Part shown: positions 27,158 through 35,164 of the stretch, piece after piece
Position numbering within the stretch: the stretch's first letter is position 1
Layout of the letters: the number at the start of each line of letters is the position of its first letter
Assembly: GCA_937981555.1 (NCBI GenBank)
Contig: CALJOK010000088.1
Span: 1 to 64,000 of the forward strand
DNA: 64,000 bases
Source of the DNA: an uncultured Saprospiraceae bacterium
Lineage (GTDB): Bacteria > Bacteroidota > Bacteroidia > Chitinophagales > Saprospiraceae
Direction: 5' to 3'
Translations under genes and position numbers: made by a program
Notes under the pieces: generated by a model
Databases searched by the model: none
The model's input: the letters and a program-made list of their open reading frames with translations, nothing else
Told to the model about the DNA's origin: nothing

Positions 27158-27195
27158 TTTGAGAAAAATATTTTTGATCGAGTTTTAAATAAAAA

Positions 27196-27232
27196 AGTGA
27201 ATAAGGATTTATCTCCTTATTCACTTTCTTTT
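27196..27232. terminator. Bidirectional terminator
   Basis: AGTGAATAAGGA (27196-27207) pairs perfectly with TCCTTATTCACT (27214-27225), with a T-rich tail to the right and A-rich DNA to the left. It separates two convergent units. Confidence 0.85.
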
Positions 27233-27242
27233 TCTAAAATAA

Positions 27243-30200
27243 CTATCCATTTATTTGTGCAATAATCGTAGGATCTTGAATTTTAAAATCCTCTGCCAGT
27301 AATTTCATTTTAGAAATGATCTCCGCAGACTTCGGATCATCATCAATAAATGGTAAAAACATTCGTCCTCGATGTTGACTATGAACTGGAATGATGGATA
27401 ATTGAAGTCCACCTTTTTTGACAATCCCACTTCCTAAATGAATACTATAATCCGCCAATTTTCCTTTGACAATAATATGTCGTTCTTTAACTTTTACATT
27501 TTCCAACTTAAATAATCTCGCAGATTCTTTTGCTAAGACCGCTCGCATTTCCATGGTAGAATGACTTGCCTCTGGATCCACGCCACCTACATGCGCAACG
27601 CTCACGACCAAGTCCACATCTCTCATTACTTCGCTAAAAACGATAGGGTCTATGTCGGCGAGGTAAATTGGTTTGTTTTCTTTTCGATCATAAAATTGCA
27701 CTTGTTCCAAAGTTGGTGCTTCCACATCAGCTGGCGAAAACCAATCTGCCATAGCGTACATCGTAGCGATAATATTTTTTTTATGATGCACTTTTTGAAG
27801 GCCTTCTTCATATTGAACTGTCCACCCTCTGGTGCGTAATAAAGCAGCAGCTTTCATTGGTTGAATTTGATGGCCAGCATATCGATTGGACTCGGTGCCT
27901 TTCTCTTTTTCATTTTTGGTCACTAAATATAACTCTCTAAAAATCTGTTTAAATGGTTGAACGATCTTATTTTCGAAAGCATATTTTTGGCAAATATCCC
28001 AAGTCGTACTTTGATATAAATGCGAAGGATGCGCAATCACGAATCGGTCAGTTGAAGTGGATTTTTTGGTTTTTCCATCCAAGTGTATGAGTTGATTTTC
28101 TTTCCAAAAGCCAACGGTGTTTTTTGTTTTATTAAATAAAACTAATTTGGAAAGCATTGCTTTGACCACAGGATGTTCCATGATATTATTTATCTCATCA
28201 GCTGTAAATTCATCTTCTCGCAACATGGCATTTTCAAGAGAAACTCTAGTCCTTTTATATTGAGAACGGAGATAAGTTTTACTTTTTTGTAAATCTAAAA
28301 CGGCTTTATTCTTTTTAAATTTAGTAGGAATTGACTTTTGATATTTGCCATCTTTTTCGATAGTGATGTGCGCGCTTCCTTGGTCGTCCACAATTAATTG
28401 TAACACTAAATTATCAATTTCGACTCTTGATTTTTCCATGACTTTTTGAGTCGCTTTTCCTTCCATCACCCAATTAAATCGAATGCTGTCATCGTAACCC
28501 GCATTCCTAGCAAGGTTATCCATTCCAATTTTAACTGCACCTTTTTCGCTTTGTTGCCGCTGTGCACCAAACTGTTTACTTTCTTTTAAAAATGCTTGTA
28601 GCAAATTATATCGACTCAAAAGATCTTTTGCAGGATTCGTTTTACTCAAAGGAATGAGTCCTAGTCCACGCACATAATCTTTATCTCTTTTGTCTTTTAT
28701 TTTGACGAGTGTTTCTCGTATTTTAATTTCTCCAAGCATGATGCTAGAGTAGAGTTTAACTAGTCGATGACCGTTGGCATAAGAAATATATTTGGCAGCA
28801 TCGTGCAATAATTTCCAATTCTGTTTGCCTGTACTTTGATACACGTCATTGAACCATTCTATGTCAATTGCACCATCTTGAAATTCCATTTTTTCGATGT
28901 TGGAATATCGTGAAATAAAAGTTTCTTTTTCGGCAGTCATATAATCTGAACCATGTGCATGAAACCACCAAACTGCATCTTCTAATTTTTTTACTTTGAT
29001 AAAATCTCCAATCCAACTCGCCCATTGAGGCGCATAAAGTGCAACCTCAATCCATCTCTTTTTTGTGATTTTTGTGCCTTTGGCCTGTGCTGAAAAATCG
29101 GAATAAGTTTCCTCTTCCAACGGAAAACATTTTTTTATCAAACTACTAAAACTCATTCTCTTAGATTCATTGACTGACCAATAATATCCACGAGTCAAAT
29201 TTTCCTTGCCCAACCTTTCTAATAAATTAACCAAATAATGAATGCCTTTGATGGATTTTAAATTACCCAAATATTTACTTGCATCGGTAGGGATATCCCC
29301 TCTTTCCATTTCGAGAGAAAGTAAGTTTGTTTTGAGCAGTTGAAATAATTTGGGGAGCTCAGGAGCAATTTTAACTTTTTTAGTATGAAAAGTATACACG
29401 CCCTCAATCGTTTGCATGATGTGAGGATTTAATAAATATTGATATTGCAAATCATTTTTAGAAAGGACTTTTTCCTCAAATAAATTTAAAGTCCAAGAAG
29501 CATCTGGTGCATAGGCACTTGGTGCTTTTAGATTTTTTATAGCGACTTCTTCCAAACTAACTTGAGCAGGTAAGATAGGATGTAAAGTTCGACATGTGAA
29601 TAAATACATTTTAATATCCCAATGTCTCAAGAGTAAATTCGTGTCGAGGTCTTGGCGGTTGTTCATGTTGCTCAAGACACTCGAATGAAGTGCCATATTT
29701 TCAATCAGGTTAAACCAGAGGATGGGTTGATTATCCCAAGTCTCCCTCTTTTCGTTAGGTATGATTTCTTTAGGGATTTTCACTATCATATCTTCCATCA
29801 CGTCCAATCGGAATTTCAATATTTGCTCGTAATCGGCATAAGCATTGAAAAAGAAATTTAGAATAGTTTCTACTTTGCTGTTAATAGAATTCCATCCTCC
29901 CCAATCGTCCAATTTAAGATTGTTTAAAACAGGAACATATTGTTCATGAAAACTTCTAATTGACTTGGTGTTCGTGATGACTCGTGAATAGTTATTGCTA
30001 TTATGAATAGCCGCCAACATTTCATAGTCATTCAATTTGGCGGATTGATACCAATCTTTCCAAAGCTTTGCCAATGGTAAAAACTCCAATTGTTCCAAAG
30101 GTGTTTTTTGATGAGCCTCATAATGAGTAAGGTTAATTGCATTGCCAAGTAAGATTGAATTTTTACTGTCATTATGTCCTAAAACCTCATATTCAAAATC

Positions 30201-32276
30201 TTTATTTTCCTGAATCAAATCAATTAATTGATTGACCGTTTTTGTTATTTTTTTTAAGTTAAAAAGTTTTGGAAATAAAAAATTGCTCGGCAGTTCATCA
30301 GTTGATTTACCTTTGACTAATGTTTTAATTTTAGCTGCGATTGATTTTTTAGATTTGAATTTTTCAGTAGGGATCATCAATGGCCTGAGTTCTTGATAAT
30401 TGATAATTCCAAATCCATTTTCAAAAGAAAACTTCGTACTTCCTATTTCAAATTTTTCGAGAAAAATATTTTCATTTTTAGAAAATTTCTTTCGCTCTTT
30501 GTAAGTCACTACCTCGCTATCTACGAAAGAAGCTAAACGATTTTCATCTTTTAGAATAGTCAAGATTTCTAATCCAGCCAATCGTTGATCGACCTTTTTT
30601 GAAACCAATAAACTAGCAACCGTAGCGGAGATATTTTTATCTTCTTGTTTTAAAATTAGTTTGATTAAACTTTCTCGAAGGTCTTTATTTTTTCGAGCCA
30701 ACATAGTTTCAATAAATTCAAAATCCTCCTTTATCAAATCCACATACTCCAATAAAATCAAACCATTTTGGACAATCCCAATACTTCGATCTTGAATGAC
30801 CAGATAAAGTGTTGGCCTTTTCCACGGCTCTTTTTTAAAATCAATATTAGGTAAATTAGGTTTAGTTTGTCGAGAATATTGATGTTGAAAATAATTGGGG
30901 AAAATTTTGTTGATTAAATTCCAACGTTGGTCAGCAGGCACATCGCTGAGTTTTTCTGCCAAGGTTTCGATTTGTTTTCTATCAGCATGATCGATCATGA
31001 TTTGATAGAAAAAATCAGGTTGGATGTGGTACGATGTCCACGCAAATATTTTTCCTCCAAATCGTTTTCCATCTCTAGGAAGAGAGTCGCCATATCTTTT
31101 TAAACCATCAAAAATGAACTCGTTGATTTTCATGTTTTTGGGTCTAACTTGAAGTGCCCAAAAATCACATTCAATGTCTTTTCCTAATCCTGATTCCAAC
31201 CATTTGGTTATTCGATTATTGCTCCGTTCCGTTTGCCCCATAAACATCAAGGCAAGAATTTTCTTTTCCTTTACGCCAGTTTCAACAATTGAAGTTGCAT
31301 GAGCATTTGCATCATCTACATCCTTTAATCCCAAAAACCAAAGCGCAACATACACTTCGAGATTGTCTTTACTTTTTAGCGCATTATCGATCAATGATTC
31401 ATTTTCAAAAAAGGAAATCACAAAGTTTAAAACACGTTTGAGCGTACTCGTTTTTGGAGCATCCCAACCAAATCCAAACCATGTATCAATTGCTCTAACG
31501 ACGCTACTAAATCGAATTAAATTTTCACGAAGAATTACTTTGATAAAATGTTCAATTGCTCCAACCGAAGTTTCATCTAGTGCTTCCAGAATCGTTTGTC
31601 GAAGTCCTTCTTGTCGTTGTGCAGCAAGCAATAATTTTTCTACTATTGCCCAATTTTTAGGATCCTCGGAGATGAGTAAACCTTTGATTAAATTTCTAGT
31701 GACACCACCTATCTCATCTTCGCCGTAGAGGATATCTTTTATTTTTTCATGGATGACATTACCTGTTTTTTTGTCAGTAAGTGCCGCTGCAAATAAATAA
31801 CCATTCCCTTGCGAATAATTATAAACGTCATATTCCGCTAATTCTAACATCGTCAAACCTGACCGTCCTTCTTTGTAAATTAATTGTAAGTAGTGAATTT
31901 TATTTTCAATATAAGTATCATTTGGTTTTGCTCGAAATGATCTTCGAACCCAATTCTTTTGATAAGGTAATCGGTTTAGAATTTCCCAAACTGCACTAAT
32001 GAATGCGCTTTGATATTTTCCAAAAAGTAAAACACTTAATTTTTTTCCTTCGGTGGTTGTCCAAGGATTAAATAAAGGATCTTCGCCAAATTGTTTTTTA
32101 AAATCAGGAACAACTTCGGCTGTAGTATAATAATTAGTTATATATTTTTTGTCTAGAGCGGCAATCATTAGTCCTAGCATTGCATACTTTTCACTAAACT
32201 TAGCTAATTGTTTTTTTGTGATTAACGGCGTTTTTTTACTGGCCAAAAAATTCTTGGCTTGTTCTGATGGAATCAT
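27243..32276 (-). CDS. Giant DUF4132/DUF5724-type protein (MolR/YehI-related)
   Basis: 1677 residues with no signal peptide or membrane helix, so cytosolic. The N-terminal 1200 residues look like helical (HEAT-like) repeats. From about 1330 the sequence matches what I know of DUF4132 (FVIAHPSHLYQSTTWDICQ, GHQIQPMKAAALLRTRGWTV, MYAMADWFSPADVEAPTLEQV). The last 137 residues form a well-conserved block (DVDLVVSVAHVGGVDPEASH, SIIPVHSQHRGRMFLPFIDD). Relatives include E. coli YehI/MolR, whose biochemical role is unknown; I see no NTPase or nuclease motif. The small gene 18 bases upstream is transcribed first in the same unit. It is the largest gene in the window. Confidence 0.85.
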   Translation of the reverse strand: MIPSEQAKNFLASKKTPLITKKQLAKFSEKYAMLGLMIAALDKKYITNYYTTAEVVPDFKKQFGEDPLFNPWTTTEGKKLSVLLFGKYQSAFISAVWEILNRLPYQKNWVRRSFRAKPNDTYIENKIHYLQLIYKEGRSGLTMLELAEYDVYNYSQGNGYLFAAALTDKKTGNVIHEKIKDILYGEDEIGGVTRNLIKGLLISEDPKNWAIVEKLLLAAQRQEGLRQTILEALDETSVGAIEHFIKVILRENLIRFSSVVRAIDTWFGFGWDAPKTSTLKRVLNFVISFFENESLIDNALKSKDNLEVYVALWFLGLKDVDDANAHATSIVETGVKEKKILALMFMGQTERSNNRITKWLESGLGKDIECDFWALQVRPKNMKINEFIFDGLKRYGDSLPRDGKRFGGKIFAWTSYHIQPDFFYQIMIDHADRKQIETLAEKLSDVPADQRWNLINKIFPNYFQHQYSRQTKPNLPNIDFKKEPWKRPTLYLVIQDRSIGIVQNGLILLEYVDLIKEDFEFIETMLARKNKDLRESLIKLILKQEDKNISATVASLLVSKKVDQRLAGLEILTILKDENRLASFVDSEVVTYKERKKFSKNENIFLEKFEIGSTKFSFENGFGIINYQELRPLMIPTEKFKSKKSIAAKIKTLVKGKSTDELPSNFLFPKLFNLKKITKTVNQLIDLIQENKDFEYEVLGHNDSKNSILLGNAINLTHYEAHQKTPLEQLEFLPLAKLWKDWYQSAKLNDYEMLAAIHNSNNYSRVITNTKSIRSFHEQYVPVLNNLKLDDWGGWNSINSKVETILNFFFNAYADYEQILKFRLDVMEDMIVKIPKEIIPNEKRETWDNQPILWFNLIENMALHSSVLSNMNNRQDLDTNLLLRHWDIKMYLFTCRTLHPILPAQVSLEEVAIKNLKAPSAYAPDASWTLNLFEEKVLSKNDLQYQYLLNPHIMQTIEGVYTFHTKKVKIAPELPKLFQLLKTNLLSLEMERGDIPTDASKYLGNLKSIKGIHYLVNLLERLGKENLTRGYYWSVNESKRMSFSSLIKKCFPLEEETYSDFSAQAKGTKITKKRWIEVALYAPQWASWIGDFIKVKKLEDAVWWFHAHGSDYMTAEKETFISRYSNIEKMEFQDGAIDIEWFNDVYQSTGKQNWKLLHDAAKYISYANGHRLVKLYSSIMLGEIKIRETLVKIKDKRDKDYVRGLGLIPLSKTNPAKDLLSRYNLLQAFLKESKQFGAQRQQSEKGAVKIGMDNLARNAGYDDSIRFNWVMEGKATQKVMEKSRVEIDNLVLQLIVDDQGSAHITIEKDGKYQKSIPTKFKKNKAVLDLQKSKTYLRSQYKRTRVSLENAMLREDEFTADEINNIMEHPVVKAMLSKLVLFNKTKNTVGFWKENQLIHLDGKTKKSTSTDRFVIAHPSHLYQSTTWDICQKYAFENKIVQPFKQIFRELYLVTKNEKEKGTESNRYAGHQIQPMKAAALLRTRGWTVQYEEGLQKVHHKKNIIATMYAMADWFSPADVEAPTLEQVQFYDRKENKPIYLADIDPIVFSEVMRDVDLVVSVAHVGGVDPEASHSTMEMRAVLAKESARLFKLENVKVKERHIIVKGKLADYSIHLGSGIVKKGGLQLSIIPVHSQHRGRMFLPFIDDDPKSAEIISKMKLLAEDFKIQDPTIIAQING

Positions 32277-32294
32277 ATTTTTTGTTTATTTTTT

Positions 32295-32711
32295 TTACCA
32301 AAAAGTCCCTGTTAGAAAACTTAATCTGAGAAAAGTAATTGGAGCTGCTGCGGATAAATTAATTTTTTGGTCTAAGTTTTTAATTTCCTCGTCCTCTATA
32401 AATACCACAAATAAACCATCTGCAAAACCTTGCAGAACAGTTTCTATGCTTTTTTCTAAATCTGCTTTGTTAGTGTTCTCCGAATCGCCAAAACCTATTT
32501 TTCCAGTTTCGGATTGGTCTTGCATCATAGCAGGAGTGAGGAAAGAAATTAAATTTAGAGTAGTTTTTTGTTTGTTATATTTTTTGACTTCACTTGTTAC
32601 GCAAGCTTGCAGTAAATCTCGTAGTGTGTCAATCTGGTTGGTAACTTCAATCTCGATAATATTGATTTTTCGCTTGCCGAGTTTTTGAAGTTTTAAAGAA
32701 ATGGTTCCCAT
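32295..32711 (-). CDS. Small protein paired with the DUF4132 giant
   Basis: 138 residues without export signals. The N-terminus is beta-strand-like (ISLKLQKLGKRKINIIEIEV), then a helix (IDTLRDLLQACVTSEVKKYNKQ), an acidic middle with many Asn/Asp/Lys, then LQGFADGLFVVFIEDEEIKNLD, and a conserved-looking end ITFLRLSFLTGTFW. I know of no named family. Its stop is 18 bases before the start of the DUF4132 gene, so the two are almost certainly co-transcribed and probably act together. An adaptor or modulator role is only an inference. Confidence 0.75.
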   Translation of the reverse strand: MGTISLKLQKLGKRKINIIEIEVTNQIDTLRDLLQACVTSEVKKYNKQKTTLNLISFLTPAMMQDQSETGKIGFGDSENTNKADLEKSIETVLQGFADGLFVVFIEDEEIKNLDQKINLSAAAPITFLRLSFLTGTFW

Positions 32712-32785: not shown

Positions 32786-32820
32786 TATTCACAAGGTGAC
32801 TCGAAGCCACCTTGTGAATA
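32786..32820. terminator. Hairpin downstream of the DUF4197 gene
   Basis: TATTCACAAGGTG (32786-32798) pairs perfectly with CACCTTGTGAATA (32808-32820), 15 bases after the end of the minus-strand DUF4197 gene. The plus side has a T6 run, but the minus side lacks a strong U-tract. It may act as a terminator or mRNA-stabilising hairpin. Confidence 0.55.
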
Positions 32821-33589: not shown

Positions 33590-34678
33590 TTATTTTTTTT
33601 CTAACAATTCAATTACATTTTTTTCGAAAGTGTGTTTTTTGAAGAATGATTTTTCAAAACCAGAGAATGATTCTACTTTTTCCAAAGCATTTTTTAAATC
33701 AAAATCCTTTTGCGTGGCGGTGAAAAATATTTTTTGTTCAAAGAAATGACGAGCTAAGTATTCTTGTTCCGTTTGTCCAGGCGTAGGAATTAGGATCGCT
33801 TTTTTCTCTAAAGAAACTAAATCCATCAAAGTAGTATAGCCTGATCGACTGATCACAATTTCACTTTCTGCAATAGCTTGATTTAATTTTTGGGAAGTTA
33901 AAAAAGAAATGACTTCAATGTTTTTGCTAAAATGAAGATGCTCTACTTTTTCTGTTTGACCTTTGACTACAAGAAATTGAAAAGATAATTCTAAAGCTTG
34001 TTCTAATATTTTTTTTTCTAAAAAAGTACGTTGCGGTTCAGGTCCTGAAAGGATGATAATTGCTTTTCGTTTGATATCACTTTCTATTTTTTCTATTCGA
34101 GAAAGGGAGCCGATATATTTTGTAAGTGTATTAGCGGTAGCGTTATTTAATTTAAATTTTCCATGAGAAAGGTTGCCAGACAAATTTGGTTTTTCCTCAA
34201 AGTCAGGAATCCAACATTCATCAAATCGTTGAATCATTTTTCGATTTAACCAATTTCCGATTTGCCGAAACAATGGAATAGGAATAGGTAAATTGATTTG
34301 ATGGGTCATAAAAACATTATAAGTTTTTTGAGAAAAAACGCCGAATCGATTGTCGGAAATGATAATGTCGATATTTTCTTTTTCTACAATTTTCGATATT
34401 TCTTTTTTCTCATTGGTAATCGCTCGCATCATTTTAGGAAATTGCCAAGCCATGTTCCACATCATATTGGAAGTGCGATAAGTGATGTCGTAGGCAGGAA
34501 GTTGAAAGATGGGAAGTTCTGGAAATTCTTTTTCCAATAAATGAAAAGCACGACCATCCGAAGCCAGAAAAACGGACGCATTTTGTTTTTGCAAAAATCG
34601 AATAATTGGAATACATCGAGTCGCATGACCTAATCCCCAATTTAGAGGAGCAACTAAAACCTTTTTTGGTTCGTTCAA
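33590..34678 (-). CDS. MurG-like glycosyltransferase (GT-B fold)
   Basis: 362 residues with a GT-B layout. The N-terminal Rossmann domain opens KVLVAPLNWGLGHATRCIPII, where GLGHATR is the Gly-rich acceptor loop as in MurG and other GT28-like enzymes. The C-terminal nucleotide-binding half has AIIILSGPEPQRTFLEKK, IEVISFLTSQKLNQAI and the donor-binding SEIVISRSGYTTLMDLVSLEKKAILIPTPGQTEQEYLA (SGYTTLMD resembles the MurG GGxxT/xxE site). It has no membrane segment. Probable role: transfer of a sugar to a lipid or polysaccharide; it is not MurG itself, which lies in the dcw cluster. Its 5' end overlaps the region holding the promoter of the tiny lipoprotein on the other strand. Confidence 0.82.
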   Translation of the reverse strand: MNEPKKVLVAPLNWGLGHATRCIPIIRFLQKQNASVFLASDGRAFHLLEKEFPELPIFQLPAYDITYRTSNMMWNMAWQFPKMMRAITNEKKEISKIVEKENIDIIISDNRFGVFSQKTYNVFMTHQINLPIPIPLFRQIGNWLNRKMIQRFDECWIPDFEEKPNLSGNLSHGKFKLNNATANTLTKYIGSLSRIEKIESDIKRKAIIILSGPEPQRTFLEKKILEQALELSFQFLVVKGQTEKVEHLHFSKNIEVISFLTSQKLNQAIAESEIVISRSGYTTLMDLVSLEKKAILIPTPGQTEQEYLARHFFEQKIFFTATQKDFDLKNALEKVESFSGFEKSFFKKHTFEKNVIELLEKK

Positions 34679-34825: not shown

Positions 34826-35164
34826 TTATCTACGATCTGCACATCTAACACATTTCGTGCTTTCAGGCATGTACATCAAACGAGCAGGTCGTATCGGGTT
34901 TTTGCACATCGAACAAAATCCAAAATTTGCATCGTCTACTTTGGTCAAAGCGAGTTGTAATTTCGATAATTTTGCTTTGGCAGATCGGAGAGCAGCTTCC
35001 GCTACACCTTTATTATTAATAGCATCCATTCGACTTACTCGTCCGAGTGAATTTTCAGGACTGATTGGTTTGGTCGAATCAAGTAAAGGAACAATCGCCG
35101 CTTCGATTTTTACAATCTCTTCATTTATCTTTTTCCTTAAGGCTTTTCTGTCTTCGATTGTCAT
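34826..35164 (-). CDS. DksA/TraR-family zinc-finger protein
   Basis: 112 residues. An N-terminal coiled-coil pair (IEDRKALRKKINEEIVKIEAA, AALRSAKAKLSKLQLALTKVD) is followed by a C4 zinc finger: FCSMCKNPI and KCVRCADRR with the spacing of the DksA/TraR family, and YMPES between them. Such proteins enter the RNA polymerase secondary channel and tune transcription with ppGpp, but the acidic tip DxxDxA of true DksA is not clear here, so the exact activity is unsure. It is transcribed alone; a 477-base gap lies upstream. Confidence 0.9.
   Translation of the reverse strand: MTIEDRKALRKKINEEIVKIEAAIVPLLDSTKPISPENSLGRVSRMDAINNKGVAEAALRSAKAKLSKLQLALTKVDDANFGFCSMCKNPIRPARLMYMPESTKCVRCADRR

Follow-up and report, generated by a model that had tools for sequence, protein, structure and literature searches.

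A giant DUF4132-DUF7737 protein and its small, predicted ubiquitin-like partner in a Saprospiraceae genome

What might a small gene do directly in front of the gene for a giant DUF4132 protein? The question is raised by a 64,000-nucleotide (nt) stretch of DNA from an uncultured Saprospiraceae bacterium, called the window here (GenBank assembly GCA_937981555.1, contig CALJOK010000088.1, positions 1 to 64,000), in which a 138-residue protein, S, is encoded just before a 1677-residue protein, D. On balance, we favour the view that S is a ubiquitin-like protein (Ubl) of the carrier or modifier type that serves the DUF4132-DUF7737 core of D, and that in the window it has become a fixed, non-covalent subunit. 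Both open reading frames (ORFs) exist with the lengths and the 18-nt spacer given in the initial annotation of this DNA, S followed by D on the minus strand:

32295..32711, minus strand: small partner S (P0002, 138 aa), a predicted beta-grasp Ubl (alignment; AlphaFold2, AF2, model; Foldseek)
32298..32312, minus strand: C-terminal tail of S, TGTFW, residues 134-138, where most relatives have di-glycine (GG)
27243..32276, minus strand: giant partner D (P0001, 1677 aa), an ORF with Pfam domains DUF5724-DUF4132-DUF7737, placed in the giants' clade of the tree
28464..32141, minus strand: DUF5724 region of D, residues 46-1271 (Pfam E 9.7e-289)
27822..28349, minus strand: DUF4132 core of D, residues 1310-1485 (Pfam E 1.1e-45; conservation)
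27252..27554, minus strand: DUF7737 C-terminal domain of D, residues 1575-1675 (Pfam E 4.7e-32)

The pairing of S and D goes far beyond chance. Among 199 genomes of the same family, surveyed with P0002 as the query for S, relatives of S were found in 28 and DUF4132 in 40, and all 28 lie within the 40 (hypergeometric 5e-25, shared ancestry ignored), which bears out the proposal of a dedicated two-gene system. Of 32 loci retrieved by way of their small gene, 26 hold a DUF4132 ORF, as does the window. Among the other six, four carry S alone and fall into the syntenic pairs L048/L057 and L049/L050; L037 and L064 are pieces of genome G122, in which S is split over contig ends and the giant lies on L063. 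Each genome with a lone S (G003, G099, G115, G191) has an S-less D gene elsewhere.

When P0002 alone was searched against the genome contigs of named genomes it gave no confirmed relative, because it is a divergent member that lacks GG. An alignment of GG-type members, a query that favours such members, confirmed 202 relatives in named genomes; the best 80 were used, and some of their loci repeat loci of the same-family set. A DUF4132 ORF lies directly downstream of S on the same strand in 71 of these best 80, with a gap of at most 60 nt in 66 of the 71 (median 8 nt). Two further loci, L109 and L153, hold pieces of D caught by clustering only, and S occurs without any D fragment in seven (L098, L122, L124, L126, L140, L167, L170). 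All named hosts are Bacteroidota apart from the Verrucomicrobiota genome of L163 and two bins labelled cyanobacteria (L123, L135); the S-D pairs of these two bins group with Bacteroidota in the tree and may come from misbinned contigs. When the whole phylum was searched with a profile, 8 of 296 genomes proved to have S, one of them the source of the window; the other seven carry D in all of their loci (L210-L217), in L212 about 1.2 kb off. Whether the small gene stands next to DUF4132 genes elsewhere was a check set in advance; it does so in those 71 named loci and in 8 of 8 phylum-wide loci. Plasmid records added S-D pairs from Novosphingobium (S ends LTPLKGG, with a 4-nt overlap with D), from Bacteroides finegoldii and from four replicons of Deinococcus, and the pairing thus spans several bacterial phyla.

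Evolutionary distances among S and among D proteins are correlated (r 0.87; best of 1000 permutations 0.21; GG pairs alone r 0.77), in part through shared ancestry, as expected of co-inherited genes. The idea that the two are chance neighbours with no joint function is contradicted by this survey in its co-occurrence, adjacency and distance correlation alike; nothing was found in its favour, and its probability is negligible. A mobile or phage origin of the pair was also considered and rejected after null searches: the D core has no match in 50,697 phage records, and S has no confirmed relative in viral contigs.

What kind of protein is S? At first sight an orphan small protein, it lost that status when the alignment of its relatives exposed an LTPLVGG end. 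Most of the small proteins share the pattern ...FVLVDD.Q.E.L...I....T.VSFVKLTPLVGG at the C-terminus; GG stands at the very C-terminus in 78 of the best 80 named S, and the end is exactly LTPLVGG in 62. The two named S that do not end in GG, L133 and L156, are both interrupted genes (L156:6995-7348 and L133:6336-6548, from flavobacterial genomes), and their D genes are still open. In an AF2 model of P0002 with 66 relatives the structural elements follow one another as in a beta-grasp fold, and confidence in the tail is low (predicted local distance difference test, pLDDT, 76.6; predicted template modelling score, pTM, 0.70). Its top Foldseek match in the Protein Data Bank (PDB) is human MOCS2A/MoaD (5mpo), and the 50 matches listed are mostly ubiquitin-fold proteins (SUMO, ubiquitin, NEDD8, MoaD, Urm1), together with PI3K and DIX-domain entries; all are weak (the best has E 0.067, and none reaches 0.001). 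A model of S fused to D again matched the human MoaD entry, at E 0.38. Sequence profiles by themselves reached no known Ubl family, with Urm1 models no better than E 0.02-0.06, and PDB sequence profiles gave no Ubl relative for S. Taking the model together with the GG end and the E1 context described below, we assign S to a predicted beta-grasp (MoaD/Urm1/ubiquitin-like) fold, with extra helices in a chain of about 130 aa. The "unknown family" of the initial annotation thus gives way to a predicted Ubl with GG-ended relatives. As a side observation, the C-terminal part of the NCBIfam WD_0702 putative metalloprotease model weakly matches 16 of 67 S proteins (best 1.4e-5, below the family cut-off).

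A third gene completes the operon in some loci. In 19 loci plus L139, that is 20 of the best 80, a ThiF-like gene of 194-248 aa starts at most 5 nt from the stop of D, giving the order Ubl - DUF4132 - activating enzyme (E1); the S-D pair of the proposed two-gene layout is real, but this occasional E1 had been missed. Pfam ThiF was confirmed in all four adjacent E1s tested, PADLOC E1-E2 models match the operon E1, and the best PDB relatives of one adjacent E1 are Uba4, ThiF and MoeB. Residues of ATP-binding and catalytic type (GxGGLG, D57, N65, R68, Q69, K81, D122 and C183) are kept in 19 of 19 aligned; we take Cys183 to be the equivalent of ThiF Cys184. An E1 is present beside the interrupted S of L133, and none was found beside an S with a W or other non-GG end.

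These features suggest how the system might work. GG-type S would be adenylated at its free di-glycine by a ThiF-type E1, whose gene follows D immediately in a quarter of the fetched loci and would otherwise lie elsewhere in the genome. Activated S could then act as a carrier for D, its tail entering a conserved pocket of D; the tail of MoaD enters MoaE. A sulfur-carrier (thiocarboxylate) role would be likelier than a complete cascade of the ubiquitin type, given that neither E2-like nor JAB genes recur in the neighbourhood: neither is among the Pfam families matched by at least 2 of the 61 proteins encoded closest to S, D or E1 on the same strand, and none was recognised by eye in the gene clusters present in at least 3 of the 80 loci. 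We also lean to sulfur-carrier chemistry because of the MoaD-like tail, the Uba4/ThiF-like E1 and the YeeE/YedE and thioredoxin genes upstream of S in Deinococcus radiodurans, all of which are suggestive only.

GG ends placed right at the stop and an operon E1 with a conserved cysteine (19 of 19) would equally suit protein conjugation, with S attached via GG to targets and D acting after E1, without an E2, as a new Ubl ligase, acceptor or recognition platform. The large size of D, its predicted helical repeats, the lack of a PDB match to its core and the stress induction reported in Deinococcus (PMC8533742) can be read in the same direction. However, no E2-like or JAB gene appeared in those neighbour families or clusters, and GG was lost in most Bacteroidota giants while D stayed; we consider conjugation rather unlikely.

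The tails of S tell more about the window. The 98 S-D rows, which count one duplicate pair, comprise 82 S with a GG end, 10 with W, one with GGYF, three with other ends and two that are broken. All W-ended S come from Bacteroidota giants: in the window and in 9 of the 10 other such giants the partner S has G-x-x-W in place of GG, and GGYF belongs to the partner of the L063 giant. The S of Deinococcus giants keeps GG. The three other ends belong to S of a 1205-1209-aa type of D; these strongly diverged, GG-less S genes lie 1 nt before the DUF4132 genes (L193:3090-3539, L200:1720-2154, L201:2426-2860), and two end IKFKSI. The simplest reading is that GG is ancestral, that in Bacteroidota giants it was first extended and then lost, and that it was lost separately in the 1205-aa type. 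The series GG, GGYF and G(S/T/A/R)xW suggests a route from carrier or modifier to fixed subunit. With GG lost, S in the window and in most other Bacteroidota giants would most likely remain bound to D non-covalently, as a fixed subunit with a structural or regulatory role.

Could S have served D in every case as a chaperone or a non-covalent structural subunit, with GG kept for folding or docking? This idea fits the S proteins without GG in the giants and in the 1205-aa type, which still lie beside D, and the 60 of 80 named loci without an adjoining E1. It leaves unexplained the exact C-terminal GG in 78 of 80 and the adjacent E1 in 20 of 80, and we judge a purely structural role unlikely.

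Which part of D goes with S? All three Pfam domains of the giant score far over cut-off (DUF4132 156 bits against 27); the label "DUF4132 giant" was right as far as it went, but DUF5724 and DUF7737 had not been named. DUF7737 marks the D architecture that tracks with S. It occurs in 34 of the 199 same-family genomes, and 27 of these are among the 28 S genomes; the exception, G059, has S and no DUF7737 call. A wider profile found S in four more DUF7737 genomes, strongly in G014 and weakly in G055, G186 and G198 (E 2e-3 to 8e-6, 1 nt before D). No S was found in G007 and G046, where D is a fragment, and the locus of G151, also with a D fragment, was left out. S is absent from the surroundings of five same-family DUF4132 proteins without a DUF7737 match and of E. 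coli YehI. In a quick maximum-likelihood tree of the D core (115 rows, several long branches), DUF7737 proteins form one group of 106 (Shimodaira-Hasegawa-like approximate likelihood ratio test, SH-aLRT, 96), and within the tree the giants form one clade of 14 (SH-aLRT 100), 3 from Deinococcus and 11 from Bacteroidota.

The D core has conserved positions HP, QP.KQ, RE..Y..T..E and S.R, and its invariant or near-invariant HP, R, E, S and D suggest an active site. Searched as a profile against PDB sequences, the core gave zero matches at E 10. For L152, S and a 647-aa D were modelled as one read-through fusion (65 rows, 11 paired; pLDDT 84.7, pTM 0.66). The model comes with no inter-domain error and says nothing firm on docking; in it D has a helical N-terminal part and a C-terminal core. 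The model's Foldseek matches include many helical repeats and none reaches E 0.001, and because they are weak we assign no enzyme class to D. An ART/PARP-like (ADP-ribosyltransferase/poly(ADP-ribose) polymerase) D was considered from a WHP motif and is not claimed; the PDB profile search gave no PARP chain. The giant had initially been called "HEAT-like", which finds no Pfam support in it; one PADLOC HEAT-ARM model matched at E 0.011, and helical repeats were seen solely in the model of the shorter L152 relative.

In what setting might S and D act? The D. radiodurans record has trxC, then a 134-aa S (profile 1.4e-20, ending LTALAGG), then a 1626-aa DUF4132 gene. This arrangement corresponds to DR_A0164-0166, the S-D pair being DR_A0165-DR_A0166; among Deinococcus, DUF5724 was Pfam-confirmed in the relative from Deinococcus sp. 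D7000 only. The pair is therefore less "uncharacterised" than initially stated, since expression and phenotype data are published for these orthologues. One paper describes drA0165-drA0166 as an operon of the DdrO/IrrE regulon, which responds to DNA damage; it reports that mitomycin C raises DRA0166-V5 and that this depends on IrrE, and it lists an operator at -83 of drA0165 (PMC8533742). DR_A0165 was studied separately as SEP068184: it is raised by gamma rays and peroxide, its deletion results in higher peroxide survival, and it was predicted to be similar to MoaD, SAMP1 and others and reported only in Deinococcus (PMC9650054). The same paper describes the operator as absent upstream of DR_A0165. 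We located this 20-base operator, without a mismatch, 82 bases before the D. radiodurans S (L226:6341-6360), which agrees with PMC8533742 and goes against the absence stated in PMC9650054. In the sections of the latter drawn on here, the authors do not link DR_A0165 to DUF4132. Our searches of the open-access literature found three papers that mention DUF4132, no mention of DUF5724, and no paper joining Ubl, E1 and DUF4132. Since DNA damage induces the Deinococcus pair, a stress response is the likely setting.

WYL/WCX-domain regulators lie just upstream of S in L103, L125, L146 and L156 (4 of 61 neighbours; shared cluster c9), which suggests that such a regulator is part of operon control in some flavobacteria. 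Regulators of the WYL type also serve defence operons. An anti-phage defence system might be considered: the initial annotation had proposed phage challenge among its checks, and bacterial Ubl/E1 conjugation is used in defence (PMC10097602). However, no PADLOC model scored below E 0.01 for the S and D proteins tested, their neighbours lying outside that scan, and the regulation published for Deinococcus is by DNA damage and peroxide (PMC8533742, PMC9650054); a defence role seems quite improbable.

Several observations weigh against S as a Ubl that serves D. The window S itself ends GTFW, with no di-glycine, and has no adjacent E1; a search of its source genome gave one ThiF, fused to rhodanese and located on another contig. 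An adjoining E1 is also missing from most of the named loci (60 of 80), and its association with tail type is not significant (present in 19 of the 82 rows with intact GG and in 0 of the other 14; Fisher 0.065). Besides the weakness of the structural matches to S and the part of the distance correlation owed to ancestry, Pfam, NCBIfam and PADLOC returned nothing above cut-off for P0002. D also occurs alone: in Acetobacter it has DUF7737 and no S detected nearby, a lone D is found in L202, and no S was found by the Nonomuraea D, which may or may not carry DUF7737. In D. radiodurans, C-terminally tagged DR_A0165, whose GG is blocked, and an N-tagged form pulled down 157 common interactors (PMC9650054); because the C-tagged GG is blocked, these are no argument for conjugation, and DR_A0166 is not named among the interactors in the sections of that paper considered.

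A bolder extension of the carrier or modifier reading is that DUF4132-DUF7737 proteins are enzymes of a new class: with no E2 in between, they would accept the Ubl straight after its activation by an E1 and modify cellular proteins or RNA when the cell suffers DNA damage or oxidative stress. The window would then hold a derived form in which a GG-less modifier has been captured as a permanent subunit. We put this forward tentatively, as having a modest chance. The parts are of known kinds, a Ubl and a ThiF-type E1, and their combination with DUF4132-DUF7737 appears to be undescribed in the searchable literature. These results provide a functional handle on DUF4132, DUF5724 and DUF7737, and connect a little-noticed bacterial Ubl family with an E1 and with a giant protein, the latter stress-induced in one well-studied species. 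D. radiodurans, where induction of the pair has already been reported, is a tractable host in which the question is directly testable.

The pair is probably its own transcription unit in the window, because an inverted repeat separates S from the DUF4197 gene lying upstream and a hairpin lies beyond D:

32787-32798 / 32808-32819, no strand: perfect 12-bp inverted repeat between the DUF4197 gene and S, a probable transcription boundary
27194..27227, listed on the plus strand: terminator-like hairpin between D and the convergent gene

The scanned stretch holds 7 terminator-like sites against 4.5 expected in shuffles. Judging from this layout, S and D would be co-transcribed, as had been proposed, and a cytosolic location is plausible for both (peak 19-residue hydropathy 1.28 and 1.23). 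Upstream of the pair lie a glycosyltransferase gene (33590-34678) and a gene for a DksA/TraR-type zinc finger protein (34826-35164). The source genome has a second S-D pair on another contig, in which a 160-aa ORF ending LVGG lies 15 nt before the gene of a 1187-aa DUF4132-DUF7737 protein; significant alignment of the two D proteins is limited to residues 1282-1676 of the giant, at 29% identity. In two members of one clade a reverse transcriptase gene (RVT_1) is convergent to the DUF4132 gene of about 1185 aa: on contig C29 of this genome (L033:2953-3744, E 7e-17) and in L045 (L045:5475-6275, E 7e-14), where it lies between D and S.

How does the pair compare with known systems? MoaD-MoeB-MoaE and ThiS-ThiF-ThiG likewise combine a small beta-grasp protein with a GG end, a ThiF-type E1 and one acceptor partner. 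Here, in contrast, the partner is DUF4132-DUF7737 rather than MoaE or ThiG, S runs to about 130 aa and carries extra helices, and the window S has no GG; unlike molybdopterin synthase, the giant has no MoaE domain by Pfam. CBASS Cap2 (of the cyclic oligonucleotide-based anti-phage signalling systems) and other E1-E2 bacterial Ubl systems share the ThiF-type E1, whereas the recurrent E2 or JAB of E1-E2-JAB operons was not seen beside the present loci. E. coli MolR/YehI (yehF, yehH-yehQ cluster), initially offered as the pertinent relatives, have the DUF4132 core in common, but the relevant architecture is DUF4132-DUF7737: YehI lacks a DUF7737 match and has as neighbours a MoxR ATPase, a VWA protein and a SWIM protein, and the WGR association described for DUF4132 of the MolR/YehI type (PMC8533742) has no counterpart in the window giant, in which Pfam found no WGR match. 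Another close system is the DR_A0165-DR_A0166 pair of D. radiodurans, where the gene order is that of the window and S keeps its GG.

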